NCBI GenBank assembly: GCA_964036195.1
Contig: OZ038451.1
Location: 15,752,529-15,816,528, forward strand
Source of the DNA: Sphaerolaimus hirsutus
Taxonomy: Eukaryota > Nematoda > Chromadorea > Monhysterida > Sphaerolaimidae
DNA length: 64,000 bases
Direction of reading: 5' to 3'
Shown here: positions 2,039-60,437 of the stretch, one piece after another
Layout: every line of letters starts with the position of its first letter
How positions within the stretch are numbered: the stretch's first letter is position 1
Notes under the pieces: model-generated
Databases searched by the model: none
Told to the model about the DNA's origin: nothing
What the model saw: the letters and a program-made list of their open reading frames with translations, nothing else
Made by a program: the position numbers and the translations under genes

Positions 2039-2298
2039 GTAATGGAAACGCCCCATGGCGCTGGCGCCTCGCGCTGGTGCCAAAGGAAAAAGCGTCATGG
2101 CGCTTTTGGCGCTTGGCGCCACTTTGCTGTGGCGCCTTTGAAGTTTGACGCTGCACCCATAAAAAGCGCCATGGTGCTTTATGGGTTATGGTATGGTATG
2201 GTGCTTGGCGCTATTTTTGCCTGGCGCCAAGAACAAAATTACTGGCGCTGGCGCTTGGCGCAAACGCCAAAGAAAAAAGCGTCATGGCGCTTATCAGC
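2039..2298. mobile_element. GGCGCC-family TIR element copy 1
   Basis: Begins AGTAATGGAAACGCC and is built almost entirely from permutations of GGCGC, TGGCGC and GCGCCA, including palindromic CCATGGCGC blocks. Related elements lie at 38127, 50724, 51752 and 53261. Open frames across it reflect the repeat rather than a gene. Confidence 0.65.
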
Positions 2299-2465
2299 AT
2301 TATTCCCAATCCAATCTCTGCGCCCGGTGAAGATAAACTCCACCCACTAAACTCAGTGCTGGAAACCCAGGGAATATGGTAAGGGTGGTAGTGGTAGTGC
2401 GCGCATGCGCATGTAATGTGGCTGTAAGTGCACTGTGTACAGCTGTACTGTAACTTGTATGTAAG

Positions 2466-2628
2466 TGCACTGTGCATGCTACATGGCACAGCCGCACAGG
2501 CGTGCATTGGTGCACACATTGAAAATCAGAAAAATTGAAACTAGGTACATTATATAAATATAAGAATGAGCTATCCAAAAATTGATTTTTTGTCTTTTAT
2601 TGTTTGATTTTCTTCTTTCTGATTTTCA
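2466..2628. repeat. Direct repeat X, left copy
   Basis: About 160 bp starting TGCACTGTGCATG and ending GATTTTC, almost identical to 3100-3262. The two copies flank repeat Y (2627-3099), giving an X-Y-X layout like a small terminal-repeat element. I find no clear target-site duplication, and no primer-binding site was checked. Confidence 0.7.
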
Positions 2629-3099
2629 TTTCATGGAAACTATTTCAGGTATAATTAATAGTCCGAAACACATTGACGTGCAATTGATGAGCATCTTGGT
2701 GAAGTGTCGTGAAGTGTCGGCGTGAAGACACTTCACGACGCTTCACCGCGCATCCAAACACCAATTTTTGCTGTGATTTACATGCAATTCAACAAACTCA
2801 CATTTTCGGACACTGGACAGTCTGAACCCGCGAACTAAATGTTTCGGTCACTTTCGACATCCCGCAAAAAAAGACCCCCAGTCAGATATTTGTATAGTAT
2901 TTATTATGCATTATTTGTATAGTATTTATTATAACCAATCGGAGGGTTTCCGGGCATTCACCCTCGGCTGTCTGGGGCCACCCCCAGACGGTCGAGGGAT
3001 ACGTTTTTGAGGGGGTTTTCAATTGAAAACCCCTGCTTATACCTCAGTCATGAAATGAAAGGATTTCAAAGACCTTACAGCGTCTAAATCGCTTCAATT
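2627..3099. repeat. Repeat Y, copy 1
   Basis: About 470 bp nearly identical to 5452-5932. It contains the hairpin at 2699-2746, a TTTGTATAGTATTTATTAT doublet, and a C/G-rich palindromic block (CTGGGGCCACCCCCAG, then GGGGGTTTTCAATTGAAAACC). No open frame of note. Family not recognised. Confidence 0.75.
2699..2746. repeat. 20-bp stem hairpin inside repeat Y
   Basis: The arms GTGAAGTGTCGTGAAGTGTC and GACACTTCACGACGCTTCAC enclose an 8-nt loop. There is one mismatch, which would be a G-U pair in RNA. The second copy (5524-5571) is a perfect 20-bp stem. Confidence 0.8.
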
Positions 3100-15892: not shown

Positions 15893-18800
15893 GTTGGTTT
15901 GGAATTTTTGAATTGGGCACTGCTATGATTGAGCAAATTATGAGAAAATTTTTTTTACCATATTTCCTTGAAATAGCCCCCCCCCCTCAAAATGGGCACT
16001 ATGAATTTGTGGTCCGGGAATTGAATAACAGACGTTCAATCAAAACACTTACTGTGTTACGTTAGAATATCATTTATACCATCTACATCCTTATATAAGG
16101 CTGTAAAAACTTATAAATGGTGGTTATTGTTGCATTTTCCACGTTTTTCTCTCAAAAGTGTCACTCTGAAAAAATAAACCCCCCGGGGGTAATTCGAGGA
16201 AATACGGTAAATACAATCAGCTCCGCCAGAGCGAGGTTAAATTTGTGTGGACAAAATTTCAGAAATATAGAATACAGTTGCCCATGTCCCCTTCGATATT
16301 TCCGATTTTGACATCTTAAAAATGTTGAAATTGATATTTCAATGCGGCAACTGAATGTTTAACATTTCAGTTATTAAATTTTTACACGAAGTAACGTTTG
16401 GGCGATGGCAGTTTGCGCACCATGTCCCCGCTTTGGCACCATATCACAACCCAAAAAATTCTCAGGTGAAGTATGAGAAATTAAACAAACCAGACAGTGC
16501 TGGGAGACATTACAAGATGGTGGGCATTTGCAAACCATGTACAGTGGCAAGGGTACAACAAAAAAAACTAGGGTTAGTTAATTTCAATGCATCTAGCATA
16601 CATTCTCTATTATAGTGACCCCAGCCAATAAAGTGTTCCCTCCAATACCGCGACGCGCCCCATTTGAGCACGTTGTGTGAGTATCATGAGACCGCATCCA
16701 ATAGTGCGATCCCCGACCTCTAAAATCACTAGTTGATTTCTAGAAAGCTCCACCCCCCCCCCCCGTCCTAACCACCCCCACTGGAGACCACTGCACTAGT
16801 TTATGTGTCTGACTGCCTATTTCATAATACAATTTGGCAACTGATCCGCTAATATTAAAGTGTTCTAGAGGAGGAACGCGCGCTTGCGCGCGAAAATTTT
16901 CACACATGAAAAATGTATATGAAAACTTGCATTTCCTGGGATTTTTTAGGTCTCACCCCGGAATCGGGGTGGCTGCAGCCCCCCTCCGCCCCCCCCCCCC
17001 GGGATACGGCCTTGGTATTAATGACTATTGTCAAATCTAATCTCCAACCTCACTCACAGGCGCGCGAGAAGGTACAGTTTCGCAAACCCTAAAAATTACA
17101 AGTTGAGGGGGCTGAGGTATGACACCCTCAATCGCCATTACCTCTCACGTCATTCAGCGATGGCCAAAGATGAGATGGGCACCGATTGGGTCGACGAGGT
17201 GACGAAAAAAATGGACGACAAAGAACGAAAGAGAAAGCAGAAGAAGAAAAGCAAACGTGAGTATTTTTACCTAACGCACATTTTACTCAAAAAAGTTACA
17301 ATATAAAGCCCCGAGAACGTTCAATCAAAGCCTTCAAAAAATGTGAAATTTCAAATTGACACTCTGACATTTATTCAAATATTGCTCAAGCCTCATACAA
17401 ATAAGGCTACATTCAAATAAGAAATGTGTGAAGAATTTGGCAAAAAAGAATGGCATAGAATGGCGCAGACGCTTCTATTATGAGAAATACAGTAACTGAA
17501 ATGTCTGTTAAAAAAAGCATTTTTAGGCGGTTGTAAAAACTGCGGGGATTGACAATGTCCCTCAGTAACAATCATATGTTCAATATGTAACACTTTCAGG
17601 CACAGCAACCATATGGAGGAGTAAATTTTCTGTGCGGCAGTTTTGGTCGTTCATCCTTTACGATGCAGCCAGCATTGCTGTTACACCGGGTGTACCGATT
17701 CGCTATGGTTAGCTCGCTGTTATTTTTGTTTTGAATGCTTAGATGGCGTTTACACATCCAGGGGGCGGGTATTTCGAGTTGGGTTATTTTTCCTCAGGTC
17801 ATTCAGAGTTCAGACCTGGGGCTTTTCGATGGGGGCTAATTCAAGCAGTGTGTATTTAAAGGAAAATGGTATATTGATTGAGTTGGGGCTAGACCACACA
17901 AACTGTGAGGTATAGGGTGTAGTAAGTAACCCACAGCGGTATATAGGCATGGGAGAGTTATTTGATCATGTGTTTAGATGATCGGTGAGAGAGAGGTGAG
18001 AGTGAGACTAATATGATAAATTGCACATGCTCAACATTGAGGGACTATTCAAGCGAGGAAATTTTTCAAGGGGGGTATCTGACTGTTTAATATGAATATT
18101 TGATACCTATATTGTTACAGAATGAAAATCAAGGTCAATTCACATTCCTTTTCAGTGGAAGAACCGTTCAAACGGCGCAGTATGGATGCATTAGTGAGAG
18201 CCTTGAGTAGCTCCGAAGCTTTCAACATAGCCGGCCGCTCGTACTACACGTCTACGATGGCTATACTGGCAGAGACAACGCGTGAGCACATGGCGAAAAG
18301 ATTGCAAAAACAGACACGCATCACCTTGGGTAGTGACATTTGGTTAGTTAGTTGTTGTGTTGATTTGTTGTGTTTGCAATTTGCTGTGTTTATATGTAAA
18401 AAACACAAGAAATTACACCACACACACTGGAGCTGGATGTCAACTGAATCTGTGTCAATTAAATTTTAGTGAATTATGTGATTTCAACTTTCCGATCTTA
18501 TAGAGCATCGTTTATTTCACACCATGCTGCAATTTTCATTGCTTCAGTTAAGTGTGATGGCTTGATTTTTTTGGTGTTATTTAGTTGACATGAATTTGCG
18601 ATGTCAACTAGCGTATGTGGGTCCATTGTGACACCACTCTTGTGTAGACAACTTATTTAGACAAAATACATTAGGCTAGGCCGCGTTTACATGTTTTTTT
18701 GTGAAGACTCAACAAAACTAAACAGTTAAATAAGTTTATAAAAAAGGTTCCATACTTCCATATGCACGAGAAAAAGTGGTCATCCATACATTGTACGTAG

Positions 18801-21800
18801 TCGAAAATGTATGTCAAATTACAGAATCCTGCTTGTTTGTAGCTCAACAGTTATTTTTAACGTCTTTAAAATTTTTGCTGTTGTCGCCCGTTATCGGGTA
18901 ACTTCCGACAACTGATGACAAAAGCAACATTTTTTTACACGTCTATAACTCTTAGCTACAAAGCATATATTTCTGCAATTTGACATGCACATTCGACTAG
19001 GTAGAATGTATGGATGATCATGTTTTCTCATGAATATGTTACATTTTTCTCAAGATATTGAACCTTTTCAAAGTCATGCACGTGTAAAAACGTGTAAACG
19101 CGGTCTTAAAGAATTCAAAGTCATGCACACGCTGGGTTCCACCAGCTACAAAAACGAAAACAATGAAATCATAATCAAATAAGCTTCACTAAGTCTACCG
19201 CTAAGTCATTCATGTCATTAGAAATCCCATTCATTTACGCATTCAAATTACGCAACACATCACTTAACACAGGAGCGCAAAGCATGGCGAATCGATGATG
19301 TGCGTCATAGCATATTTCTTTGATGAAGAAACAGGAAAACCGATGAAACAGTTCTTAGGCTTGAAAGAATGCCATTCTACCAATGCGGAGACCGTTTGCA
19401 AACGCTTCAAAGAGTGTTTAGACGACTATGGGATCAGCGAGGATCAAATTTTTCGGGTGCGTTAGTTAACTAGTCGTTCGCCTGCATAAGCAAATGTGCA
19501 CAGTGCCAATTAGGGATGGCCGAAAAACAACAGGGTTTTTGAAAAACAACCGTTTGTTCAAAAACAGGGTTTTATTCTAAAGCTCCCAGAAAAAAAAACG
19601 GTTTCGAGTTTGGTTTCGGTTTCTGAGGGTTTTATGCATGTAATGTTTTTTCAATGTATAGACGTGGAAGCAAAAAAATCTCAAAATGGGTAAAAAATAG
19701 CTCAATCAAAGTAGCTAGCTACTATACTAGCTAAGCTAGCTAGCTATATAAGCACACATGAAGGGTGTGCTTCTAAAAGTCTATCGATTTTGAGATAATT
19801 GCAATTGAAAGTTTGGAGTATGCAATACCCATACATGGGTATCGGGTATGCGAATTTTGGGTATGGGTATTTTGGGCATATTGTTGGGTATCCACATGCA
19901 TGGGTAAAATCGTTTTTTTTCCTGCCTTCTTAACCTTGAAAAAGCCTATATATTGTGCCCCCGCCAGCCCCCCCCCCAGAAAATTACCAATCAAAGCAAT
20001 TTCCATTTTCAGATGGTCACCGATAATGGCGCGAACATGAAAAAAAGCCTTCGATCTTCACTCGCTCTCGCTTATGCCCTCAACCACCATGGAACTGACG
20101 AAATGTTTGGTTTGATCGATTTTGAGCCGGTTGGTTGGGTTCCAAGTTTTGTGTTCAGTCAGACATGACTTTATTTTCAGAATGGGGACTGAGCTGAGAT
20201 TTATAAAATTCAAGATCTTGATCATTTTAGTTTACCGTATATCCTTGAATAACTCCCCCAGTAAGCCGAGTGAGGAAAAAATAACCCCCCTCTAAAAACT
20301 TCCCCCACTCGGATGGGTATGTAATGTCACACATAAATATAAAACATGTTTCATGTATTTATGCACTTTATGAAAAATTGAGTGAATATTCTGCATCTGC
20401 AGTTTATTGATTGTAATGTTTCACTGCTCGAATTTGTTTTCCAATGCATGATATATTTATGAAGTTAATTAAACCACATTTAAACAGCAAATTGATTATA
20501 CACTTTAAGCAAAATTCAAGTTACCCCCCCCCCCCCTCAATCAAGTCCCCTTCAATAAATTCTGACAAAAAATACCTCCTGGGGAATTACTGGAGGATAT
20601 ATGGTAGTCACGCCTGATTTGGGATTAAAAATATACTGTATTTGCTTAAATAATTCCCCCCTTGAATAAATCCCCCCTCGAATCACCCCCCCCTGTAACA
20701 CGAGTGAGGAACTAATAATTCCCCCCCTCGAATAATCCCCCCTTTAAAGATTTGATTAATTCGTTATACCTAATTTTAACAGAAATTGCATGTTATTGTG
20801 TTTATAAGGCACGTTTCGGGAAATGAGTTGATGGAAACATGCTTGAAAATTTTGACGAAATAATAATTCCCCCCCCCCCCCTTGAATAATTCCCCCCTCG
20901 AATAGTTCCCCATCAAAAATGTCTGGCGAAAAAATAATCCCCCAGGGGGATTATTCAAGCAAATACGGCAAACATCGGACAAGCCAGGTTTGACAGCTAC
21001 GTTCTGATCTGAGTCGGTGCCAGACCTGGCTTGACCGCTGTTTACACATGGACAGCAGGATACTTACCTAGCTAGGAGACTACTTATCCACCTAACTTAT
21101 TTCTTATTGTTCAATTCAAAGGATGAGCTGCGCCCGGATGAAATATTGAAGTACACAAAACAGTTTGACAAAACATTGCAAAAGCTGAGCGACATAGCAG
21201 TTGCATTGCAGAACAGATTCAAACGAGCTTGGTCGGGCTGCTTCGCTCACACAATCCAGGTAACTCGTTTGAAAAAAACATTTTTGAGTAACTCAGACTT
21301 TAAGTTTCTGAGCCAGTGTCAGACCCAATTCACGGTTGTGGTGTGTGTCCAATTTGGCTATCTCACGAGTTCCATCTCACTCAACCTATACGTGAAAAAT
21401 GGGACACGTCATTTTTATTCCGATCTCACTGCTAAGCGTTGACACCAAAATGTACTCGAATTTTTTTTCTGCACACACTAGGTAGGTAACACAAACATAC
21501 ACACACACACAAAAGTTGGCCCACTGGGCTACTACTAGAGCCCGACTGTGTTTAGATGCTCAAGTGCCAAATTTACTAATGAAATTGCCCCCCCCCCTCA
21601 TACAGCTGACAGTGCACGGTGGCCTCAGAGATAGCCCACCCGATGACTACGAGAATCCATTCCGGGACATTTTGGAAGCAGCTAAGAAGCTGGTAGAGAA
21701 AGTACGAGCTGTCCCGAAAGTCTCATTGGCTTTGAAAGATTCCTCCAAATTGTTTCTCTTGACTGCTGTTGACACACGCTGGTCATCGACATTCTACCTT

Positions 21801-24800
21801 ACGGAACGTTTATGTCTGGTGAGTTGTGGTATTCGGTGGGTTGGGCAGGTCACCTAATAAAAATATGAGGAAAAAAACATGATGTCTGAAAAGAGTTTTA
21901 AAACGGCCGAAATTTTTAGTACTAAGCACTAGCCACTAGGCATTTTGCAAAATTTTTGCGCGCAAGCGCGCATTTTCACACACAAATTGACATTGGTGGT
22001 TGTTTTCATTGGTTTTGTGGCATTTTTAGTATCAAAGCATCCATTTCTATAGCTGAAGCGTAACCCCCATTCTGTACCCCTTATTTGCATTGAAAAATAC
22101 ACCCTTATTGTCCATAGTACATTTTCAACCTTATTTGCAGGTGAAAGAGGCTGTGTGCAAAATTGCTGCAAAGCACAAGCTGGAAGTTTTCAGCGCCAGT
22201 GATTGGGGGAAACTTGAAGCATTCAACGATTATATGGGGCGGTTTGCATACATTACTAAATGTATTCAAACTGAGAAGCACGTGACGGCATCTATGGTGA
22301 TTGCCTACACCAAGCAGATGCTAGCTTGGATGGATAAACAGGAATCAAATGCCGACCGTGACGTGCGGAAATTGGCAAGGCAGATGAAGGTTTGTTTTTT
22401 TTGACTCAGGTTTTGTTAACAAGTTTTTTTGTGACAACTCAACAACACCATAAATTTCAATACATCGAGTAAAAAAGTTCCACATTCATGAGAACAAGTC
22501 TGTCTGATGGTCACCGACAGACAACGGTTCTGCAATTGAGGAGTTTGTTTCCGAAACCATTAAATATATCCACGTTTTTCAATGTTGTCAAAATTGCATT
22601 TGAAACTTTGGAGGTAATGGGTTTTGAGTGCAAATTCACCTATGTTGGGCTGGAGATAATGGGTTTCGGATGCAAAATTCCATTTTTTTTTTAAACGGTA
22701 TCAATCGAGAGGTCCTGAGAGGGGATAAATGTTCCCCAGTCCGAATCCACAAAAAGTTGCTTGTACACAAACATTTTTCAATGTGTGTGAATAAATGGTT
22801 AAAAGTTGGTCCTTAACGGGTTACGGAAGCAAACACCTCAATTAGACATGCATATTCGACCAGGGAGACATGCATATTATACTCAACTGCTACTTCTACT
22901 TCTGTCTCATGCATACTCTACTGCAACTTATCGAACTTTTTAGTGTTGTCGAGTTGTCACAAAAATTGTAAATGCGTCCATACGGGCATGGGTAGTAATG
23001 TGAGTTTTATGTGTCATCGTAATGTTCTAAAATCTAGTTTTTCTAAATTTTGAGTCTCCACTACATGTTTTGTGATGGTCAACTATTTGGGAAAGCTGCG
23101 ATCGATCACGTTATAGTTTCACCAACATGTTGCTCATATCCAAATTTATGATTATACGCATCAGCGTATATTTCATTAGATGATTTCCTATTATTCTAGT
23201 TTTTCCAACAAAAATGTGATCATATGAAAATGATCAGGTAATCTATCCAAAATGAAGTTTATCGTCAGCAGCAAGAGCCAAGAGCAATTTTTTATGGTCG
23301 ATCGCAATCTCAAATAGGGTTCAATCAAACGGGATCCCCATCCCAAATCCCAATAAATTTTGGGATTTTGTTATACCGATCTCGATCCCGAAACCTCAAT
23401 CCCGATCCTGAAATCTCAAAAAATGGATCCCAATCCCGATCCCGAAACTTTTGAAATCCCAATCCAAATCCCGAAAGCCCAATCCCGGTCCCGAAATCTC
23501 AGAAGCCAATCCCGATCCTGAAAAGTCAGTCCCATTTTGAACCCTAACCATCATTTGCCCGAAAAGTCAGTCCCATATTCAATTTTACAGAAAATTACAT
23601 TGGACAAATTCGCATATGCACTGGAGCCCAGTGCTGACAACTTTGATCCATTCTGGGCGCTGTGCACACTCCTGGATCGAAAATTCGCGTTCCGGGTTTG
23701 CTCGCCGGATAATTTGGAAGCAGATCCAAACAACGCTCGCCTTATCGAAGCGGCAAAGGAGTATTTGATAAGAGCGTTTGGGAAAGACTTCGGCATCAAA
23801 TGCGCGGAGGAAGAGGACGATGACACACCACCAGCTGATGTGCCAACTCCAGCGAAAGCTAAAAAATCAAGAGCTGACGCTGCAGTAGACGACCAAGAGG
23901 TGAGTCAGGACTTGAGATGTGGGGGGCTAAGTTTGTCAGGGCTCCCAGTTCAGACCTCACCCCTCACGGATGCCCCTGCTTTTAATGGGATATGTTCAGT
24001 ACTGGGTGGGACAGATACTGGGCTGATGCGATTTTTGAGAAACTACTCCTGAAATCGTTGATCAAAATTGCTCATTCGCACCTTCAAAATCACTAGGTAG
24101 CTGGGGTGTCCTACGGTGGGGGGGGGGGCTGGGGGGGGGCTACCCCCCCCCCAAATCAGCCAGCTATCTATCTATCCCGGAGGCCGCTCAGCTATCTATC
24201 ATTCCCGAGACATAAATTTTTGGCTACTACCCCCCCCCCCAACCCAAGCCTAAAGACCCCCCCAAATCGCTCAGCTATCTCTCTATCTGGAGGGTTTTCA
24301 GAAATTTTGCCCCAATTTTCGCTCAAAATCACTAATTTTCACACCGTTTTATAGTTTTTCACCTACAAAATTGTGCTTTCCGGCTATATACATGGCTATA
24401 TACCTATTTTTAGCCATTTTATACCTACTTTTGGCAACTTTTAACTGATTATTAGCGATTTTTCCCCTTTCTGCCTTCTTAACCTTGAAAAATACTGTAA
24501 ATATATTGTGCCCCCGGCAGCCCCCCCGTCCGAGCCCCCCAGAAATTTTTTCAGCTATCTATCCCTCCTCCGCTAGGTAGTCCATCTCAATGAGATGATC
24601 TCCTTCTCCATGTAAATGTGACTTTCTGGCTACTGCCATAATCAGTATTTTTGCCTATAAATATACTAAATGCTCAATTGATCTATTTCATTACATGAGC
24701 ATCGTTGTCATTTCCTACTCTGTTAACACACTTGAACAAACTTTCAGCTCATGCTTATGGAGGCGAATGACATGGGCTTGTCGTCGGATGAAGAGCAGGA

Positions 24801-27800
24801 CGATCATCCGACAGAAATTGGCCAGGGAGATCAACAAGAACCCCTTCTACTCCGGCAATTCAAGGCTCATTTGGAAAAAATGGCAACAAAACCCAAAAAG
24901 AAATTATTTGCAGAGATAATGAAGGCGAACAGTCTCGAGTATTGGTACGAGCTTGTAAGTTCACTTAATATCTAAATATATGTATGTGGAAAAAATGTCT
25001 ACCTGTAAAAGTCAATCATTTAGGTATATCAAAAGTTGATATTGATAAAATGTTACTTTCAGTGGGTATGAAATCAATTCAGCAAGAAGTTTGAAAACAA
25101 TTTAGCTGGGGATTTTTGAGAGTCAAAAAATGTCGCATTTGGGCAAATCATGACATGCTATAAGTTCAGGAAAAGATCTTGAAAAATGTGCGGGATTCAT
25201 TCTATGTGCTGTTTCCACATACATTGAGTCATTTTTGGATTGTTTTGGAGTATCGACTTTGAGTAGTTGACACCTCATTTTTGACTGGTGGGAACAATTT
25301 TTTTCAGACTTTTAATGAGGGGGGGGGGGGTATTCAAGCGGAGGAATCATTTTTTCGTCAAAATTTTCAAATATGCTTCTCTCAACTCATTCCAAAAAAC
25401 ATGCTACCATTTTCGTTCAAATTAAACTTGACAAATTGATCGAAATCAGATGCTTTAAGGGTGAAAATATTTTATTCACTGATCTTAAAAGCTTACACGG
25501 GCAAATATTTGAGGGGGGAACTATTCAACCAAATACAGTATATTTATAATGTGCGAAATTAACCATTTCAGATGGACAGCAGCGAATTCCATCAACTGGC
25601 GAAAGTTGCAGTCGTGTGCTTAAGTGTACCAGCCACAACGGCAGCAGAAGAACGCGTTTTCTCGATTACTGGGAAAGTTGGCGCAGCTGACAGAGGTGGC
25701 GCGCTCAGCATGCGACAGGTGTGTGTGTGCGGTCGTTGTCGACATTGTTTTTTTCACGTGTTGTCGACATTTTCAATGTCGTAGTAAACCAGGGAGGTGG
25801 GTAGGGACGCAGCCAAGCCATGTTTTGAAGCAGGGGCATATGAAATATACTGAATCTGGATTGGGAATGGGAACCCCCCTAAAATATTTGCACTGTGGGA
25901 TTGCATTGCGCCATTGGCATTGGTTTTAAGAGCAATTGGAGCTGTGTTGTACAGTGCATACATAGTTAGGATAATTTTCAATAGTTCATACATAGATGCA
26001 TTTTCTATAAAGGACCCCCTTGCTTGTTTTGTGACAGAAAGAAGTGCGAGAAATTTTTATACAAGAACACAATTCCTTACATTTATATACGCCCTCCTTT
26101 AATGTAAACAATTTTCCCATGGGACGTCACATCACAGTGAGCCGCGAGACAAAACTTAATAAATGCACTATTTATCGCAGCTGGCGACGGAGACCATCAT
26201 CAAACTGAACCGCGATGTGGTCACAGAACTCATAGAAAATGACCAGGTTCCATACCCTGGCACCAATGGTATCAGGCATTTGAAGCGCATGAGCAAGAAG
26301 GGCAAAGCCCTTGACACCAAAATTGCCAACTGTGAGGATAAGCCAAACCAAGATTTCGACACACAAAAAGCTGCCACCCAGTGGGACACCATTTACAACA
26401 ACTATGATGACTCAGAGTCGGAATCGGAAAGCGACAATGAAGATGAGAACAAAGAGCATGTGTCTGCGGTGAGTATAATTGTCAATTGTGAGGTCATTTT
26501 TCTACATATGCTCTGCCTCTGCCACTTGTCTGATAAACATGTAAGTACTACCGTATTTCCACGAAAAAAACCCTCTCGAAATATTCACGTCCCCCTCAAA
26601 AGTCTCACCCTGAAACAATCACCCCACAACAAATTTGTACCGGGATTTCAAAAAACATTCTGGCGAAATAATAAGCCCCCTCGAAATACCCCCCTCAAAA
26701 TACTCACTCTGAAAAAATCACCCCATGAGGGCGGGGGGGGGGTATGTCGAGCAGATTTGGTATATCCTGTTTGGACACATTATCTGTTTTGGGTACGCGA
26801 ATGCCTAATTTTTATCATGACTCGTTCAAAGAATTCTGACGAAAATCCCCCGCCCCTCGAATAAACACCACCCCTTCAAATTTTGCTGGCAAAATAATCG
26901 CACATGAAAAAAATCAAAATTTCGAAATTGTTTTATTCAAGGGGGCTAATTCCACGAAATACAGTAGATGTTGACTGACTCCTATTTGGGAACTATACAG
27001 TTTTTTTATATGACACCAGGTCGTGAAAACGTTGTTTTTTGTTACATAAATACACCCTACGATATGACTACCTACCGGTATACACAGTTTGAGTTTGTCT
27101 AATCAATGACAATTTACAGCGCGGCGGGACCAAGTCCAAGATCAGCACTGACACTGGCAGCACTAGCAACGACTGTGCGCCATCATCCAGCAATGCTTCG
27201 AATTTGGTTGTGAAGGTAAATTGTGTGAAAAAATGTGGCATTATGCTGACATTGAAGCGACATTATTTTGACTTATTGTGCCTTCACACACTAGTCTTCA
27301 CTGTGACTTCGGTGAAAACTGAATTTCTTTCAAACGCGAATTTTTTCACATGGTTGAATGATTTGATTTTATTCAAATTTGAATCTAAAGTTATGACAGT
27401 TCGAATTTAAAAATTGTAAAACTAAAAAAAAACAAAAGAGTACGCTGAATGTCGCCATTTCAGTTTTCACATCAGTCACAGTGAAAACTAGTGTGTGTAG
27501 GCTGTAGGGTCATCACAGCACTACTCAATGGCTTCACTTTATGCCACAATTATTTGACAAAGTGGTAGGGTTGGAAACAAATAGATTTTTTAATGACCCC
27601 GATTAAAAAAAACATCGATTTTTAAATAAAAATCGCTGGGTCAAAATTCACATTTCTCTCTAAAATCATTCCTTACACATTTCCTCACATTTCTATGTCT
27701 CACGACTGGAACCCTCCCCCTGGCTACGCCACTATTTACACCTCAACCCCTATGCCTGACTATCGGTATACACAGTTTGAGTTTGTCTAATCAATGACAA

Positions 27801-30800
27801 TTTACAGCGCGGCGGGACCAAGTCCAAGATCAGCACTGACACTGGCAGCACTAGCAACGACTGTGCGCCATCATCCAGCAATGCCAGCATTTCGTCGGCA
27901 CCAAAAAATTCGCGGCGACAGCTGAACAGAGATGCGAAAACCAAGCGTGTTGCTGTGGCAGCAACAACGTCCAGTGCAGATGACAGTCACACTGCCACAG
28001 TGCAAGACAAGCTGCCCATACCGCGCAAACACATTTTCCACCAACTACAATTGATTGGAGCTGCCACTAAAGGAGTATCAGGTGCCACTCCCAGACCCTG
28101 TAAAATGCCCTGTAAAATTTAAAATGTAACACAAAGTGTCAAAAGTCATGTAAAATGCCCCCAAAAATAGCAAAAATTTGCCATTTTCCAGGACATTTTA
28201 CATGACTTAATAGACTGCATGACATTTGACATTTTACAGGGCATTTTACAGGGTCTGGGAGTGCCCCCAGCACAAGATATCAAAATAATCGCAAATCAGC
28301 AGAAGATCAAGACCCAAAAATTCACCAATTTATGCATGGCATTTGAGTCGAGAGATGTGACATCATACAACCCCGAGCACGATGACAACAGTAAACCAGC
28401 AGGGGCATTGGTTGACATGCGCAATTCATCGGTGAGTTAATTTTGTTAATCGGTGTATGTTATCGATGTGTCTAGGGAAGGGATGGCAAGCGCTTTTTTC
28501 AAGCGGTTTTTTTTTTAAACGCCGCTTTTTTTAAAAAAAAGCGCAATGGTCCCAGCACTTTTTTTTTAAAAAAGCGCTGGCAAAATTTTTGGTACTTATG
28601 CACTAGACTAGGTATTTTGCAATTTTTTGTGTGCAGTGATATACATAACATGTTGACATAAAAAGTGAATTTTTTGGCAGAATTCACCACTTATAGCCGT
28701 TGTATGGTCATATATAACATCACAGAGTATTCCCACTGTCTTATATACCTATATATGTTGACACAAGGTCATATCTCTGAGCTTTTTCCATCCCTAGATG
28801 TGTCGAATATACCTATTACAGACCTGTTTGGGGGGTGGGTGGGGCGGGTTCTCCTAAATTTTCACAGAAATGTCTCAAATTGTGCTGCATATCATTGAAT
28901 AAGTCCCCCTCAAAAAACACCCTCCTATTGGTGAGGTGCATGAAAAAAAACCCTCTCAAATAATCCCCCTTTTGATATTTTGATAAATTTTTCTGAAGTC
29001 AGACTCAGATAAATTTTTATTGGGATTCAAACATTTTTGGGATTGCGGTCAGTATTGTTTTTACGAATTGTCGTGATCGTGAGCAGGGAATTTTCATTCA
29101 GATTGAGATCTTATAAATAGGTATACACGGCGGACATCACACTTAGTATGAAAACCCACCATAACCCATTTGAATAATGGGCCCACACACGCTATTTGAC
29201 ATCAACACCAAATGTCAACTGGTTCCGATCCGATCTTGATTCAAAGTTTGCTGACAGGTGGACAAACGACGTTCAAACGCAATGTTTGAATTAGGAACGG
29301 CACCAGTTGACATTTGATGTCGATGTCAACTAGCGTGTGGGGGGGGGGGCAATGAATCAAAAATTATACAATTTTTTATCATTGTATTTCTTTGTTTACT
29401 ACGTATTGATTAATTATGTAATTTATCTCAAAAAAATTTTCATTCAATTATGGTAGGTTTTCATACTAAGTGGGCTGTCCGCCGCACCAAGTACAGAAAC
29501 GATTATCAATATTGAAATGACTTTTCATTATTTTTTTCCTACAGAATGCTCTATTGCCTGCCGCGATGCATAGCACTGGGTATGCAAAGCAGCGTCAAGA
29601 ACAGAAAAGGGCAAAACGGCAGCTGGTGGCAGGAGACTCGGTCTGTCTACCGGCAGGTGGAGAAGAAAATGAGATTCCAGCCACAGGAGAATTGGGACCG
29701 GTGAACAGGCCGCAAAAGCGCAAGCGGACTGGCAGAGACAGTGCGGCCGAGGCCAGTCACACAGACGCTGCTGCTAGTGTGGTGGACGAACTCCCGGACA
29801 GCGACACTGGTTCAAACGTTGCAAGCAGACCGTTCCCGTGCCCGAAGGGGACCAAACCCCGGGTGCCTTTTCAAAAAAAGGTTCGATTTTGCTCTTGTAG
29901 TGATTCAAAATGGTTTTTCAGCGGGGGGGGGGGCATTTTTTGGTAAATGTATTTTCATAATTCCGGATTGCGATCTACTGGATCGGGATGCCTATAGCAC
30001 AAAAATTGCGGAATTCGGGATCATCACCCAGAAATCACAGTAGTAGCACATCATATAATATTGGGACTATTGCTGGGCACCCCCAGAAAGGGGGGTTACC
30101 CCCCCCCCACAAAAAAAAATCGCCCCGCTATTTATCTATCCCCACCCAAGGGCTGAGTTATGTATCCCACCAGAACATCGATTTGTTATCTATCTACCGA
30201 ACTCCCAGATGGTCAAAATCTAGAATACCCATGAGACTGAGTCGACCTGTCTATCCTAATAACACAATTTCAATGACAATCGTTTTCAGCAACAACTGAC
30301 TTTCGAAGAAAAAGCGGCAAAAACACGGGACAACTTCAATACCAGAATGAGGACAGGGCTGAACGTTCTCTCTACGATGTCTATAGAGGAAGAGCGGGAG
30401 GAGGATGTTGCGCATGTGAGTAGGGTAAACGGGGTTGACTTTTCGGCATCGCGATTGCTTTTCTGAGACTTCAGGATTGAGGTGACTGAATCGGGATTGT
30501 CTTTTTGAGATTTCGGGATCGGACTCCACCCAGGCCCAGCCATAGGATTTTTTTTCAGAAACGGGATTGGGTACTTTAAATAATGTTCTGGTATTGTAGC
30601 TTATTCGCTAAATTCGCAAAAAAACGGCTGAAAAACACTTACTATGCCAAGGAAATGGTAAAAGCTTCTTGACAGGATGTTTCTGTACATATTTATATTG
30701 GCAAATTTTCCGGTGTTGGGGTGAGGGAAACGTTTTTTTAGGATTGGGATTGGGTTTCAAAAGGGTTCAGGATTGCCTTTGTTTGACATTTCGGGATTGG

Positions 30801-32986
30801 CATTGGGGTTTCGGGATCAGGACAGCAAAACCCCGAAATTTTCTGGATTTCGGGATCAGGATCCCCATTGAACCCTACTTTTTGTGGGTACTCCACTCAA
30901 TTTGTGACCTCCTCGGACCAAAATAAACTTTTTTTACTAAAATAAAATCAAAAATGCAGGAAACGCCCAATTCTGGCGGTCTAGAGCCAGAAAACGACCT
31001 GCACCAAGAAGTGTCCGACTGTGATCATGGCAGCGACATCAACAACGATGAGGAGAATGGCCAGCAGACAGCCGTCAGAGTCGGACAAGAACTTGACGAG
31101 AATCCAGCGGTCATCGGGACTGTCACGAGCTTGTCTAAAGTAAGTTCAAGTTCAGCTCCCCCTGACGCTTAGGGTGGGTGTAAATAAGTGGGACATCAGT
31201 GCTTACCCTGGGGTAAATAACTGATCGGAAACAAAATAAAAAAATAAATTGACTACTGTATTTCCTCAATATACCCCCCCTCGAAATTCCCCCGTCCTCA
31301 AATACCCCCCTCAAAATAGACACTATACATCTATTAGCACCCCCCTCGAAATACACCCCCCAAATTGAGTGTAAAGGGAACGTATACCACAAAAGTTATG
31401 GTTTGTGATCCGGGCAATGCAGAACACACATAAAACCATGGTTCTACTGTTAAAAATGTGTATGTCCTTGCAGTGAATATAACAATTACCTAGGTAATAG
31501 GTATACTCGACGGACCACAAAGTATGCACCCAAAATTATTTATGTCTTGCTTGGTCGATAACGAGCGAGCTTGATACTTATGTATGCATGCACTTTCACA
31601 AAAAGAAACATTCTTCAAAAAAGAAAAAGGCGGGGTCGCATACAAACAAGGAATGTTTTACCCATCATGTTGTTTTTTTAAATTTTTTTGCTGGAATTAT
31701 TTTAATTTTATCAATGATGATGTCATGATATAGTGTTTCCTTATGAAAAATGCATAGCATGCGGTCCGATGAGTATACTCAATTTGGAGTGTTTGCCCAT
31801 CTCAATTATTCGATCTACAATTCTATGTTTTGCAGGATGCCTATGCACCAATCCCTGAAAAGGATGGGATCATGGTGTCGACGACCCGCAAAAAGACCAT
31901 CCGGTTGGATGTGTGGGGCAAATCGCTCTCAGATTCGGACGGAGACCTGGATGAAGCCATCGCAAAGACTTATGGTCCGACCTTAAGTCCAGTTCCAAGC
32001 GATGATGAGTTTCAAGACTCAGATTCAGACTCAGAGGAGCGACGCAGACGTGAGGAGGTGATTTGAGTTGGCCGATATTTTTTTAAGTTAAAAAACACAA
32101 TGTCTGAACGAAACGTTTTAAAAAACGTTGGACGAAATGTTTAGTATTCGGCACTAGAAATTTTTGCGCATAATTTCACACACTCTAATTTCATATTCAC
32201 ATTGGTGGTTGTTTTCATTGGTTTTGTGGCATTTTTAGTATCAAAGCATACATTTTTATATGTGTTATCTAAAAATGAACCCCCTTGTATTACCCCCTGA
32301 AAAACTACCGTATATCCTCGAATAAGACCCCCCTCGAATAACTCCCCCCTCAACAACACTGACGAAAAAATAACTCCCTCCCTCGAATAACTCCCCCTCT
32401 GTCTTAAAAATATGCTATACATGTTACGAAAAATTATCGATGAAAATACAAAAGAATGCAACGTAAGGCTGCGACAGCATTTACATGACATGTACGCAGT
32501 GTATAAACACCTTTTTTACGTTGTTTAAGTGGTAAATACATGGATTACGTGAGTTGACAGACTGCATTCATACAATGAATTCAGTCCAAGTTTCTGGGGA
32601 AAAATTACTACCTCCCTTGAATAAGTACCTCATAAGTTCATAACTCCCCCAGGGTCTTTTTCGAGGATATACGGTATATGAAAAATAAAAAAACCCTAAG
32701 GGGAAATGTGGGTTATATCAAATTATTATTTTTACACATGCAGGGGATAGCAGATCTGTGCACCGGGTGTGGCTTCGATGGATTAAATCGACGAAGTCCC
32801 GTGAAAGCCAGTGGTCGGAAGAAAATGGGTCTCCAAACGAAGACTAGGGGAAACCGTGCTGCTTCAACTTCCAAAACAGTACCAGGCGGGGTGCCGGCAT
32901 CGCGACCATCTTCGAACGACTACAGTGGACGCACTACAAGATCCCGTTCCAAGAGCATTTCATCCGATCCGGAAGATAAAACCTAA
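15742..32986 (+). CDS. BED zinc finger plus hAT transposase, intron-rich gene
   Basis: Twenty-one exons join without a stop into about 1,390 codons. In order: acidic lead; BED finger (SPLWKYL, CKPC, HYLSRH) over three exons; hAT RNase-H-like core with GSDIW, VTDNGANM, CFAHT and DTRWSSTFYL; C-terminal dimerisation motif PATTAAEERVFS; then some 550 residues of acidic/basic low-complexity tail ending in TAA. In hAT enzymes the catalytic triad is D, D, E with a CxxH, and all are visible. Transposase genes usually have few introns; 20 introns full of other elements, and no recognised flanking TIRs, point to a host gene derived from a hAT element (domestication is inferred). The N-terminus upstream of 15742 is uncertain and may include the acidic and SET exons. 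Confidence 0.7.
15958..16207. mobile_element. CCGTATTT-family element
   Basis: CCATATTTCCTTGAAATAG to AATTCGAGGAAATACGG, with TA flanks. In the intron between the first two BED exons. Confidence 0.7.
16466..16572 (+). CDS. hAT gene exon: BED Cys pair
   Basis: Acceptor AATTCTCAG, then VKYEKLNKP, then GICKPCTVARVQQKK, supplying C-x2-C. Donor CTAGG|GTTAGT, phase 2. The frame is open upstream to about 16362, but this acceptor gives normal BED spacing and phase agreement. Confidence 0.6.
17060..17260 (+). CDS. hAT gene exon: BED His pair and basic stretch
   Basis: Acceptor CACTCACAG. Encodes LNRHYLSRHS (H-x4-H completing the BED finger) and a lysine-rich segment KERKRKQKKKSK that could act as a nuclear localisation signal. 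The stronger-looking donor GTGAGT at 17257 leaves the wrong phase; GTATTT at 17261 (phase 2) restores the frame with the next exon. Confidence 0.6.
18121..18342 (+). CDS. hAT gene exon: start of RNase-H core
   Basis: Acceptor TTGTTACAG. Begins MKIKVNSHSF and ends TLGSDI plus the first two bases of Trp; the Asp in GSDIW aligns with the first catalytic Asp of hAT transposases. Donor TG|GTTAGT, phase 2. Confidence 0.75.
18412..18628. mobile_element. GTCAACT-family element
   Basis: CACACACTGGAGCTGGATGT then CAACTGAATC at the left is mirrored by GATGTCAACTAGCGTATGTG at the right. In a hAT-gene intron. Confidence 0.55.
18678..19107. mobile_element. GGCCGCGTTTACA TIR element
   Basis: AGGCCGCGTTTACATGTTTT is mirrored by ACGTGTAAACGCGGTCTT. 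Interior has TGTGAAGACTCAAC and related words. Looser relatives at 14423 and 22402. Confidence 0.65.
19273..19456 (+). CDS. hAT gene exon
   Basis: Acceptor TAACACAG; completes GSDIW and encodes SAKHGESMMCVIAYF, then LKECHSTNAETVCKRF and GISEDQIFR. This is the strand and helix segment between the two catalytic Asp residues. Donor CGG|GTGCGT, phase 0. Confidence 0.75.
20013..20129 (+). CDS. hAT gene exon: second catalytic Asp
   Basis: Acceptor CATTTTCAG. Starts MVTDNGANMKKS, the near-universal hAT VTDNxxNM block with the second catalytic Asp. Donor CCG|GTTGGT; an in-phase alternative lies 9 bases on. Confidence 0.8.
20235..20604. mobile_element. CCGTATAT-variant family element
   Basis: CCGTATATCCTTGAATAACT to TACTGGAGGATATATGG, with TA flanks. 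Tandem CCCCC-rich motif inside. In a hAT-gene intron. Confidence 0.75.
20636..20968. mobile_element. CCGTATTT-family element
   Basis: CTGTATTTGCTTAAATAATT to TTATTCAAGCAAATACGG. Shares its interior with 11892-12264, including the ACGAGTGAGGAA word. It sits 31 bp after the previous element. Confidence 0.8.
21122..21259 (+). CDS. hAT gene exon: CxxH
   Basis: Acceptor TTCAAAG. DELRPDEILKY leads to WSGCFAHTIQ, containing the C-x2-H that follows the second Asp in hAT transposases. Donor CAG|GTAACT, phase 0. Confidence 0.75.
21606..21818 (+). CDS. hAT gene exon: DTRW motif
   Basis: Acceptor CCTCATACAG. Encodes LTVHGGLRDSP, helical DILEAAKKLVEK and VDTRWSSTFYLTERL, the conserved TRWxS block. Donor CTG|GTGAGT, phase 0. 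Confidence 0.8.
21864..22060. mobile_element. GGGTTGGC-family partial copy
   Basis: Shares ATTTTTAGTACTAAGCACTA, TTGCGCGCAAGCGCGC and TTGGTGGTTGTTTTCATTGG with the element at 44906-45486 and with 32066-32270. No intact ends. Confidence 0.5.
22141..22389 (+). CDS. hAT gene exon: helical insertion domain
   Basis: Acceptor TTATTTGCAG. All-helical stretch with SDWGKLEAFNDYMGRF and EKHVTASMVIAYTKQML, matching the hAT W-x-L...pf..T..ls pattern. Donor AAG|GTTTGT, phase 0. Confidence 0.75.
22402..22985. mobile_element. Degenerate GTTTACA-type element
   Basis: TTTTGTTAACAAGTTTTTTT and GTGACAACTCAAC at the left are loosely mirrored by GAGTTGTCACAAAAATTGTA at about 22955. Ends poorly defined. Confidence 0.35.
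23317..23544. mobile_element. GGGATC-family element, C-strand orientation
   Basis: TAGGGTTCAATCAAACGGGAT at the left and TTTTGAACCCTA at the right. The interior is tandem AATCCCGATCCCGAAA. In the intron before the exon at 23591. Confidence 0.7.
23591..23899 (+). CDS. hAT gene exon: LDRKF region
   Basis: Acceptor ATTTTACAG. Contains FDPFWALCTLLDRKF, the hAT region leading to the C-terminal domain, then an acidic run (EEEDDDTPPAD) and basic AKAKKSRAD. Donor GAG|GTGAGT, phase 0. Confidence 0.75.
24100..24580. repeat. AGCTATCTATC / poly-C element
   Basis: Runs of C and G (GGGGGGGG, CCCCCCCC) alternate with CAGCTATCTATC words. Similar stretches at 30066, 35935, 51130 and 52885. In a hAT-gene intron; ends unclear. 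Confidence 0.5.
24748..24954 (+). CDS. hAT gene exon: pre-dimerisation
   Basis: Acceptor CTTTCAG. LMLMEANDMGLSSDEEQDD, then helical FKAHLEKMATKP and SLEYWYEL, the Trp-containing start of the hAT C-terminal motif. Donor CTT|GTAAGT, phase 0. Confidence 0.75.
25317..25539. mobile_element. CCGTATTT-family fragment
   Basis: GGGTATTCAAGCGGAGGAAT at the left and CTATTCAACCAAATACAG at the right. AT core shared with other members. Confidence 0.5.
25572..25718 (+). CDS. hAT gene exon: dimerisation motif and catalytic Glu
   Basis: Acceptor CATTTCAG. FHQLAKVAVVCLSVPATTAAEERVFS fits the hAT C-terminal signature in full (LA..A...LSVPAT.A..ERVFS, read in pieces). The Glu before RVFS aligns with the third catalytic residue. 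Donor CAG|GTGTGT, phase 0. Confidence 0.85.
26181..26468 (+). CDS. hAT gene exon: end of hAT domain, acidic tail begins
   Basis: Acceptor TTATCGCAG. LATETIIKLNRD closes the hAT fold; a basic stretch (RMSKKGKALD) and an acidic Ser run (DDSESESESDNEDEN) follow. Donor GCG|GTGAGT, phase 0. Confidence 0.75.
26551..26964. mobile_element. CCGTATTT-family element
   Basis: CCGTATTTCCACGAAA to TTCCACGAAATACAG with TA flanks. The change CCACG in one arm is mirrored by CGTGG-equivalent sequence in the other. Tandem CTCGAAATACCCCC inside. Confidence 0.75.
27120..27215 (+). CDS. hAT gene exon, tandem duplicate copy 1
   Basis: Acceptor AATTTACAG. RGGTKSKISTDTGSTSND then ASNLVVK|GTAAAT. The acceptor region and the first 80 bp of exon match 27760-27886. 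Both copies are phase 0, so inclusion of both or of either keeps frame. Confidence 0.55.
27279..27510. mobile_element. CTACACACAC element, GTGAAAAC subfamily
   Basis: CCTTCACACACTAGTCTTCAC at the left (first 20 bases shown in part) is mirrored by GTGAAAACTAGTGTGTGTAG. It lies between the two duplicate exons. Relative at 11106-11350. Confidence 0.7.
27808..28081 (+). CDS. hAT gene exon, duplicate copy 2, before introner
   Basis: Same start as 27120-27215, then unique NSRRQLNRDAKTKRV and IPRKHIFHQLQLIG. Ends TATCAG|GTGCCACTCC in phase 1 at the edge of a TIR element. Confidence 0.6.
28082..28270 (+). mobile_element. Introner-like TIR element acting as an intron
   Basis: The 189-bp interval begins GTGCCACTCCCAGACCCTGT and ends ACAGGGTCTGGGAGTGCCCC plus CAG. 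The ends are inverted copies of one another over more than 30 bp (CACTCCCAGACCCTGTAAAA, then TGCCCTGTAAAAT). Removing it as a GT-AG intron joins TCA-G to CA-CAA in frame. A second copy at 59908-60312 interrupts another coding region in the same way. Confidence 0.7.
28271..28431 (+). CDS. hAT gene exon, after introner
   Basis: Begins two bases into a codon; AQDIKIIANQQKIKTQKF then FESRDVTSYNPEHDD. Donor TCG|GTGAGT, phase 0. Function of this tail unknown. Confidence 0.6.
28478..28796. mobile_element. GGGATGGCAAGC element (AAGCGC/TTTTTT motif)
   Basis: AGGGATGGCAAGCGCTTTTTT (terminal 20 bases) at the left is mirrored by GAGCTTTTTCCATCCCTA. Repeats of AAGCGCTTTTTTT. Part of the GGGTTGGC superfamily. 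Confidence 0.65.
29178..29354. mobile_element. GTCAACT-family element
   Basis: GCCCACACACGCTATTTGAC and CCAAATGTCAACTGGTTCC are mirrored by GGCACCAGTTGACATTTGAT and GTCAACTAGCGTGTGG. Closest relative 58614-58872. Confidence 0.75.
29545..29880 (+). CDS. hAT gene tail exon
   Basis: Acceptor TTCCTACAG; 112 codons. Basic patches (KQRQEQKRAKRQ, RPQKRKRTGRD) are likely nuclear localisation signals, followed by acidic Ala-rich sequence. Donor AAG|GTTCGA is weak; a GTGCCT 21 bases earlier is an alternative. Confidence 0.6.
30290..30415 (+). CDS. hAT gene tail exon
   Basis: Acceptor CGTTTTCAG. LTFEEKAAKTRDNFN then SIEEEREEDVAH; coiled-coil-like charge pattern. Donor CAT|GTGAGT, phase 0. Confidence 0.6.
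30423..30875. mobile_element. GGGATC-family element
   Basis: TAGGGTAAACGGGGTTGACT to GGATCCCCATTGAACCCTA; repeated TTTCGGGATTGGG inside. Occupies most of the intron after 30415. Confidence 0.6.
30960..31139 (+). CDS. hAT gene tail exon
   Basis: Acceptor AAAATGCAG. Acidic: EPENDLHQEVSDCDHGSD, INNDEENGQQ. Donor AAA|GTAAGT, phase 0. Confidence 0.6.
31256..31390. mobile_element. CCGTATTT-family 5' part
   Basis: CTGTATTTCCTCAATATACC then CCCCTCGAAATACACCCCC; the right end is missing. Confidence 0.5.
31836..32057 (+). CDS. hAT gene tail exon
   Basis: Acceptor TTTTGCAG. TTRKKTIRLDVWGKSL, then acidic SDDEFQDSDSDSEERRRREE. Donor GAG|GTGATT, phase 0. Confidence 0.6.
32308..32674. mobile_element. CCGTATAT-variant element
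   Basis: CCGTATATCCTCGAATAAGA to TTTTTCGAGGATATACGG with TA flanks. The ATAT variant is present in both arms. Confidence 0.75.
32744..32986 (+). CDS. hAT gene terminal exon
   Basis: Acceptor CACATGCAG. LCTGCGFDGLNRR, basic/Ser-rich KASGRKKMG and TRSRSKSISSDPEDKT, then TAA at 32984. An AATAAA lies at 33365 but within a repeat; the true poly(A) site is unknown. Confidence 0.65.
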   Translation, partial: GIADLCTGCGFDGLNRRSPVKASGRKKMGLQTKTRGNRAASTSKTVPGGVPASRPSSNDYSGRTTRSRSKSISSDPEDKT

Positions 32987-42156: not shown

Positions 42157-42775
42157 TAGGTAAGTACTAGCTACTAGCATGCATTGTGTACTCATGAATT
42201 TTTAAAAGAGTTTCTACCATGTATAAATACGGTGCTTATTGTTTTCAGGGTTGAATACAAACTCCAGCAATAAATGTGATAAGGGAAAGCATTTTTTCGT
42301 TTAAATGATCAACATTTTTTCGTTTTGCTCGGCATTAGTGTATGCCCGTCGTATGATCAACTGGTCTTCTCCCTTATCATTTTTCAATTGCTTGGAGTTA
42401 TGTGTCTTTCAATTGGTGATCTCGATTCACGCTGTTTTGGGTGCTGTTGCTGTGTCTTCTGAGTCCTGTGCGAGTGAGTGTGTGTGTGTGTGTGTGTATT
42501 TTTGCAGCTCTGTCTTTTTATTTTGATGTGCATTCATCTACATATAATGGTTACGTTTTATTTTTCACACGTTTTTCTTATTTACACTAGAATAATGTCC
42601 TCTAATCCCCCACTATACCAGCGTTTTTTCAAATGAATAAATGATAGTAATGTGTAAAATGACATGTTAACATATTGCCAAAAGCGATCTCTAATCTAGC
42701 TCGATTCAAATCACAGTATCTCGTCGAACATGGCAGCTATCTTGAACGGCTTTGTATTGCATGCACGGCAATGGC

Positions 42776-43530
42776 TGGTCGAACGCAATCTCCGCCCTGA
42801 GCGTCTTTGTCTTGTCGAACGCGGCCGCCGTCCTGAGCGTCTTTGTATTGTTCTTCTCACGCAGCCGCCGCCGTCCTGAGCGGCAACTGCTTGTCTCACG
42901 CAGCCGCCGCCGTCCTGAGCGGCAACTGCTTGTCTCACGCAGCCGCCGCCGTCCTGAGCGGCAACTGCTTGTCTCACGCAGCCGCCGCCGTCCTGAGCGG
43001 CAACTGCTTGTCGAACGCGGCCGCCGTCCTGAGCGTCTTTGTATTGTTCTTCTCTGCACGGCAACTGCCTGTCTCACGCAGCCGCCGCCGTCCTGAGCGG
43101 CAACTGCCTGTCTCACGCAGCCGCCGCCGTCCTGAGCGGCAACTGCTTGTCTCACGCAGCCGCCGCCGTCCTGAGCGGCAACTGCTTGTCTCACGCAGCC
43201 GCCGCCGTCTTGAGCGGCAACTGCTTGTCTCACGCAGCCGCCGCCGTCCTGAGCGGCAACTGCTTGTCGAACGCGGCCGCCGTCCTGAGCGTCTTTGTAT
43301 TGTTCTTCTCTGCACGGCAACTGCCTGTCTCACGCAGCCGCCGCCGTCCTGAGCGGCAACTGCTTGTCTCACGCAGCCGCCGCCGTCGTGAGCGGCAACT
43401 GCTTGTCTCACGCAGCCGCCGCCGTTTTGAGCGGCAACTGCCTGTCTCACGCAGCCGCCGCCGTCTTGAGCGGCAACTGCTTGTCTCACGCAGCCGCCGC
43501 CGTCCTGAGCGGCAACTGCCTGTCTCGTCT
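42776..43530. repeat. 39-bp minisatellite with higher-order structure
   Basis: About 14 units of 39 bp (GTCTCACGCAGCCGCCGCCG, then TCCTGAGCGGCAACTGCTT). They fall in three blocks of 4, 5 and 5 units, each introduced by a variant unit (GTCGAACGCGGCCGCCGTCC...GTCTTTGTATTG). Later blocks repeat every ~256 bp. 39 is divisible by 3, so long frames are open on both strands (13-residue periods); no start or splice context supports a gene. Confidence 0.85.
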
Positions 43531-59241: not shown

Positions 59242-59505
59242 GGCCAGTTCCGCAAAATAAGAAGTGAGAAGTGAAATGGCAAAGGCAAAGTATAAGCGCA
59301 AAGACGAAGTGAAACGGCAATTGAATTGGCAAAAGCGAAGTAAAAAATAAATAAATAAAAGGTAATTTCTCTTCGCTTTTGCCATTTCACTTGCCAAATC
59401 ACTTGCCATTTCACTTGCCAAATCACTTGCCATTTCACTTCGCCTTTACGCTTTTACTTCGCCTTTGCCATTTCACTTCTCACTTCTCATTTTGCGGAAC
59501 TGGCA
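59242..59505. mobile_element. GGCCAGTTCCGCAA element, copy 2
   Basis: GGCCAGTTCCGCAAAATAAG is mirrored by CTCATTTTGCGGAACTGGC. The arms are tandem GTGAAATGGCAAAGGC / TTGCCATTTCACTTG. Same ends as 48120-48380 but a different expansion of the inner motif. Confidence 0.85.
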
Positions 59506-59741: not shown

Positions 59742-59907
59742 ATGGTGATGGATGAAAAATGCCGGCCCATAATCACTGTGAGCCCGTACAAGCAGCGAAA
59801 AAAACTGTCTAGCACAAAGTCAAGTGCATTGTTATCAAATGTACGGCAAAACTGCGAGCCACGGGCGCGTCTGCCTAGAAGGTGTCATTCGACGGTAACA
59901 TCATCTG
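59742..59907 (+). CDS. Unidentified gene, exon before introner
   Basis: 55 codons plus one base, ending ACATCATCTG|GTGCCACTCC. The frame continues open into the element, as expected if the element landed inside an exon. Confidence 0.45.
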
Positions 59908-60437
59908 GTGCCACTCCCAGACCCTGTAAAATGCCCTGTAAAATGTAAAGTGTCATGCAAAGTGTCAAAAGTCATGTTAAATGACCCTAATACCCTACAA
60001 GAATCGCTAGCGTGTTGCCATTTTACAGGGCATTTTACAGGACTTTTGACACTTTGCGAGATATTTGCCATTTTACAGGGATATTTACATGACTTTTGAC
60101 ACTTTGCATGAAATTTAACATTTTACAGGGTGTTTTACATGACTTTTAACACTGCATTCTATTTGCCATTTTACGTATGGGGTTTTCCACATGACGTTTG
60201 ATAGTTTGCATGACATTTTGACATTTAACAGTGCATTTTACATGACATTTAACACTTTGCATGTCATCTGACATTTTACGGGGAATTTTACAGGCTCTGG
60301 GACTGCCGCCAGATTTGGTAAATCTTCAACTCGTTGGAAATGTGAATGAAACCAATTATCAGCTATTTGGAAAATATCGGCAAGACGAGGAAATGTTCTA
60401 CAGGTTTCTGTACAAGCCGCTGCCAGTTTCACAACAC
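59742..60437 (+). CDS. Two-exon fragment of an unidentified gene
   Basis: Exon 59742-59907 starts MVMDEKCRPIITVSPYK and is Arg/Lys/Cys-rich (SNVRQNCEPRARLPRR). Exon 60313-60437 gives DLVNLQLVGNVNETNYQLFG, then DEEMFYRFLYKPLPVSQH, and the donor CAC|GTGAGT. They join in phase 1 across an introner-like element. No family recognised; further 3' exons were not found in the window. The ATG is the first in frame after a stop. Confidence 0.45.
59908..60312 (+). mobile_element. Introner-like TIR element, copy 2
   Basis: Starts GTGCCACTCCCAGACCCTGT and ends CAGGCTCTGGGACTGCCGCC plus AG. Same ends as 28082-28270. The interior holds four or five units of ATTTTACAGGGNATTTTACA plus TGACTTTTGACACTTTGCA. 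GT-AG removal gives TCT-G|AT-TTG in frame, phase 1. Confidence 0.7.
60313..60437 (+). CDS. Unidentified gene, exon after introner
   Basis: Begins with the last two bases of an Asp codon and ends phase 0 at a consensus GTGAGT. Frame open throughout. Confidence 0.45.

Follow-up and report, generated by a model that had tools for sequence, protein, structure and literature searches.

The origin of new introns is a long-open question, and there are few animal examples from which to approach it. Their creation by transposons is a known route that is seldom reported in animals. The parts of Gozashti et al. 2022 (PMC9860276) available to us report that 175 of 3,325 genomes carry introners and that, among animals and land plants, they occur in only two groups, both of them animals, and describe a class, exemplified in Chrysochromulina, in which the element brings its own 5' splice site and the target-site duplicate (TSD) provides the 3' one; the word Harbinger is absent from the searched text of that paper. 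A second point of comparison is the NuwaI group of PHIS transposons, which the consulted passages of PMC4482050 characterise by CWG duplicates, terminal inverted repeats (TIRs) of 12-61 bp usually starting GGG, and a distribution confined to animals; those passages do not describe NuwaI families as introns. The third is the set of introner elements in Amoebophrya, presented in the excerpted text of PMC7789003 as mostly non-canonical dinoflagellate introns with no family-specific repeat.

The repeated putative introns that we describe here, from the nematode Sphaerolaimus hirsutus, resemble the introners of PMC9860276, as its available parts portray them, in being alike up to both splice sites, and many of those families likewise have TIRs and/or TSDs. 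Whereas the Chrysochromulina example given there has 4-bp TSDs and no TIRs, in the present family the TIRs are long, the triplets are CWG and the host is an animal, and it may overlap with the animal introner groups of that survey. With NuwaI, as set out in those passages of PMC4482050, it shares an animal host and appears to share the CWG target triplets, the TIR length range (47 nt here) and the GGG start at one end, but its left end is GTGC (the right being GGGG) and its unit is a 186-nt palindrome without a gene. By its ends, target triplets and host, the family would fit a NuwaI-like placement rather than NuwaI proper. Like the Amoebophrya elements of PMC7789003, in the portion seen, it has inverted repeats near its ends and predicted hairpins that bring the exon ends together, the direct repeats at the Amoebophrya exon borders being 3-5 nt; unlike them, its predicted introns are GT-AG, form one family and occur in an animal. 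What the present case would add is an animal NuwaI-like family in which a target rule and an asymmetry of the ends could jointly explain both splice sites. No NuwaI-type introner was among the literature matches listed for introners, for introner with Harbinger, or for NuwaI. Because a 2025 PNAS paper, which reportedly derives introners from diverse transposons, fell outside the matches of that search, we make no claim to a first report.

We analysed a stretch of 64,000 nt, referred to as the window, for which an earlier note had proposed that an element at 28082-28270 is bounded by TIRs whose termini act as both splice sites. What it had observed in that interval was confirmed. The interval starts GTGCCACTCCCAGACC and ends GGTCTGGGAGTGCCCCCAG, and these ends are inverted copies (arms 28081-28127 and 28222-28268, 47 nt, 91% complementary). 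Excision as a GT-AG intron, joining 28081 to 28271, restores an open frame in phase 1, and the unspliced reading breaks the exon with two in-frame stops. The attribution of both splice sites to the element's termini stands for the donor, which is the element's own, and does not for the acceptor, whose AG seemingly comes from the target-site duplicate. The features of this copy (copy 1) and of the gene around it (gene 1) are:

28082..28267, plus strand: copy 1, putative mobile unit proper (short palindromic non-autonomous transposon), from repeat and terminus analysis and the copy alignment

28082-28270, plus strand: predicted intron of copy 1, GT...AG

28081..28127, plus strand: left terminal inverted repeat, including one base outside the intron, from the repeat finder alignment

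28222..28268, plus strand: right terminal inverted repeat, from the repeat finder alignment

28079..28081, plus strand: left CAG, probable target-site triplet that remains in the exon, from the triplet table

28268..28270, plus strand: right CAG, probable duplicated target triplet that supplies the acceptor AG, from the triplet table and end alignment

28082..28083, plus strand: GT donor within the left repeat, with G at the matching place of the opposite repeat, from 26 aligned copies

26181..26468, plus strand: exon of gene 1 upstream of the introner, hand-made model, 3' side in phase 0

27808..28081, plus strand: exon part of gene 1 preceding the introner, open frame, hand-made model

28271..28431, plus strand: exon part of gene 1 that follows the introner and precedes a GTGAGT donor, open frame, hand-made model

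29545..29880, plus strand: next exon of gene 1, hand-made model, phase 0

30290..30415, plus strand: next exon of gene 1, hand-made model, phase 0

The CAG at 28268-28270 is best read as a duplicate of the CAG at 28079-28081, which would leave a mobile unit of about 28082-28267. Aligned with its own reverse complement, copy 1 is 81% identical over 180 columns and is thus a near-palindrome. Its 16-nt left terminus recurs exactly at 59908 as well as at 28082, on the minus strand at 28252-28267 with 2 mismatches, and at 2975 and 5805 with 3 mismatches each; these five matches at 3 mismatches or fewer compare with an average of 0.23 over 100 shuffles, and no shuffle had as many as five. Viral contigs held no occurrence of the exact 20-nt terminus. 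A CACTA assignment, in which the repeat would start at CACT, was rejected, as the conserved sequence continues beyond CACT as far as the CAG, and CACT itself is not flanked by a matching short duplicate.

With copy 1 removed, 27808-28081 and 28271-28431 together provide 145 open codons. The copy is 189 nt long, a multiple of three, and frame agreement alone is therefore weak evidence at this site; the case is carried instead by the in-frame stops, the neighbouring phase-0 exons, the second copy in the window and the homology joins elsewhere in the genome. In the hand-made model of gene 1 (26181 to 30960) the other four introns are all phase 0 and GT-AG, and copy 1 makes the sole phase-1 break. 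The claim that gene 1 is hAT-derived was not confirmed: the exons that were tried singly all fell below the Pfam cut-offs, and a search of 7339 candidates with its 395-residue tail gave no homolog at E 0.001 or below. By eye, the upstream exons may resemble hAT transposase, and the introner finding is independent of that label. A 134-bp stretch is duplicated at 97% identity (window 27063-27196 and 27751-27884) and holds an exon start of gene 1 together with its acceptor, a local exon duplication; the exon at 27120-27215 is possibly alternative or dead.

The second copy in the window (copy 2) splits a different open exon, likewise in phase 1, and its host exon gave no Pfam family:

59908..60312, plus strand: copy 2, at 405 nt a longer relative that shares the ends, CTG flank at 59905-59907 and terminal CAG at 60310-60312

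59742..59907, plus strand: exon part preceding copy 2, open frame that may start at a codon at 59742, no Pfam match

60313..60437, plus strand: exon part that follows copy 2 and precedes a GTGAGTG donor, open frame

Just upstream of copy 2, a further palindromic repeat (AAGTGAAATGGCAAA...) occupies window 59245-59505.

The assembly that contains the window comprises 348,482,957 bases in 762 contigs. Searching it with copy 1 gave 3129 first-look candidates, a number of candidates and not of copies, from which 40 places were scored; the window copy itself aside, these were 84-88% identical on the better strand. We analysed 28 of the 40, which are the places most like the window copy rather than a random sample, and the same two ends were present at all 28 places. 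Two near-duplicate loci (L006 of L017, and L008 of L005) were dropped, giving 27 independent copies including copy 2 of the window. Similarity reaches both splice sites in 26/26 aligned copies, whose mean divergence from the family consensus is 5.9% (1.6-9.5%). The flanks of the analysed places hold extra full or partial copies; at one of them, L027, three lie within about 1.1 kb (2004-3077); each of them has GT at its left end, and the right end is AG in two and CTG in the third.

Alignment of the 26 copies shows how the two ends differ. Base by base, the left end is G in 26, T in 25 (C in one), G in 26, C in 26 and C in 26, and the right end, taken inward starting at the base that precedes the last triplet, is G in 23, G in 25, G in 25, G in 26 and C in 24. 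Read inward, the left repeat thus begins GTGCCAC and the right GGGGCAC, with consistent differences at bases 2 and 4. Base 2, which belongs to the donor, is T in 25/26 left ends and G in 25/26 right ends. The last two bases of the intron are AG in 22/26 aligned copies and TG in the other 4. The flanking triplets (left/right) are CAG/CAG in 18 copies, CTG/CAG in 3 and CAG/CTG in 2, with CAG/TAG, TAG/CAG, CTG/CTG and TTG/CTG once each. Both are CAG or CTG (CWG) in 24/27, although the right-hand count leans to CWG because the script that placed the right end sought that motif; on the left side, read at a fixed offset, the figure is 25/27. The two triplets are identical in 19/27 copies and differ in 8/27, and the unequal ones count against duplication, since a clean duplication does not predict them. 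In the three CTG/CAG copies, the AG of the right triplet looks like a gain that followed insertion, other histories being possible. A longer target duplicate, as in hAT, was set aside: only weak composition biases appear in the ten bases that border the triplets to the left and to the right.

These ends also bear on whether the copies could be older introns that spread by intron transposition (reverse splicing) or were overrun by a MITE, with no intron created by DNA insertion. Inverted repeats that run to the very ends and CWG on both sides are marks of a DNA transposon, and the likeness up to both splice sites in every aligned copy speaks against it as well; we consider this origin extremely unlikely. 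Insertion into once-continuous exons would instead account for the pattern as follows. A short non-autonomous, nearly full palindrome (MITE) would insert at CWG, mainly CAG, its transposase presumably supplied by transposons of the NuwaI group of PHIS (PIF/Harbinger-like). The CAG target would be duplicated at insertion and its right copy would become the acceptor AG, while the left repeat, having become asymmetric to the right one (T for G at base 2), would carry the GT donor. Because the AG would be that of the duplicated CAG and the GT that of the left repeat, removal from donor to acceptor should, at every site with CAG on both sides, give back precisely the mRNA that existed before insertion.

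Genes of recognisable function allow the position of the joins to be examined. When cut at the element's termini, the copies at L017, L022 and L010 give matches to Hsp70 (69 residues), Unc13 (100 residues) and SGLT1 (69 residues) respectively, none with a gap over the join, and L023 gives a CUB domain whose match to cubilin, a weak one, is free of gaps at the join. At L002 a COMM domain spans the join exactly at the Pfam cut-off (22.4 bits), a shorter piece falling just below it, and the COMM query had no match among PDB sequences; the translation upstream of this exon appears to belong to the same family as the repeat at window 59245-59505. In all, 4 of 20 spliced frames scanned reached a Pfam cut-off and 16 did not, and the Unc13 join was detected through PDB sequences only. 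Unc13 in itself marks the host as an animal. With CAG on both sides, every cut within the CAG yields an identical mRNA, and only the GT-AG rule fixes its position. Similar predicted introns, alike up to both splice sites, lie in unrelated genes, and the gap-free rejoining of Hsp70, Unc13 and SGLT1 by other copies lends support, at the level of sequence comparison, to the introner interpretation first put forward for 28082-28270.

Another way to view such copies is as ordinary MITEs, never spliced and with an incidental GT and AG at their ends, whose host exons belong to gene copies that are dead or seldom used. In keeping with this, 4/27 copies are unable to splice at the right end, and L006, an inverted near-duplicate of the Hsp70 copy L017 some 32 kb away on the same contig (C3), has a GT donor and CGG at the acceptor, the corresponding sites of L017 being GC and CAG; one of the pair may no longer splice. 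Dead exons, however, would be expected to lose their open frames in a family of 5.9% mean divergence. We compared the open arms of the 23/27 independent copies that are splice-competent (GT or GC plus AG) with 5400 random joins in the same flanks, controls which share loci and are non-independent, so that p-values are rough. The median shorter open arm was 48 codons in the 23 copies against 15 in the controls, and the antisense median over all 27 copies was 20. The sense arm exceeded the antisense arm in 18/23, and arms of at least 50 codons occurred in 10/23 copies, 3.5% of controls and 1/23 in antisense. The four copies without AG had arms of 46, 23, 47 and 4 codons, two of them (L003 and L011, at 46 and 47) being still open, which counts against the introner reading. 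A long antisense frame (shorter arm 142 codons) lies at L004, which ends in CTG; either the element was inserted antisense to a gene there or the frame is due to chance. Also against the introner reading, the longest left and right frames agree in only 14/27 copies, where 9 are expected by chance, and L010 and L023 fail this test although homology backs both joins; with both window copies being multiples of three as well, frame agreement was dropped as a stand-alone proof. Sense arms far above controls on both sides, together with Hsp70, Unc13 and SGLT1 continuous exactly at the termini, make incidental, unspliced MITEs very unlikely. The family would appear, on these comparisons, to behave as an introner, and we put a probability of roughly 0.88 on 28082-28270 being a copy of it: a near-palindromic MITE that targets CWG, most often CAG, for insertion and is removed from exons as a GT-AG intron.

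The palindrome has consequences for the predicted RNA. The fold of copy 1 has an energy of -95.8 kcal/mol, where shuffled sequences average -35.4 (z -16.6), and GUGC and CCCCCAG stay single-stranded in it; the single and the consensus fold agree in keeping the first 4 and last 7 positions free of pairing. Internal TTTTACAG sites, seemingly better acceptors, fall inside the predicted stem. The hairpin may help splicing. A stronger form of this idea would have the hairpin itself direct removal of the copies along a non-canonical route, in place of the usual recognition of donor and acceptor. Apart from the stability of the fold and its free ends, such a route could draw on the 9/69 pairs of the consensus fold with a kept double change and on the one GC donor; Amoebophrya introners with hairpins of this kind are described in the part of PMC7789003 seen. 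The RNAalifold covariation term is, however, slightly unfavourable (+0.97), and a 5' end of GT or GC in 26/26 copies with AG in 22/26 is what the standard spliceosome needs, so that we regard removal led by the hairpin as highly improbable. Palindromes are usual in MITEs, and both they and paired changes can arise without an RNA role.

Returning to removal as GT-AG introns, we tentatively suggest, at clearly less than even odds, that the build of the transposon is itself a splicing device. The palindrome would fold the pre-mRNA so that donor and terminal acceptor alone stay single-stranded and the internal TTTTACAG acceptor-like sites are paired away, a one-base change in the left repeat would supply GT, and the CWG rule would supply AG; every in-sense insertion at CAG would then be spliceable at once, with the mRNA restored to the letter. 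The mechanical prediction is that a CWG-targeting transposon with one changed terminal base yields insertions that remove themselves from mRNA, and this one animal genome offers a series of insertions in well-known genes in which splicing, cost and age could be measured.

Elsewhere in the window, the open exons of 18104-25546 are presumably hAT transposase-like, judged by eye, although single-exon searches brought no Pfam family over its cut-off. An open frame at 11395-11739 matches a SET domain just above cut-off, and self-matches mark a long tandem repeat array at 42720-43526.
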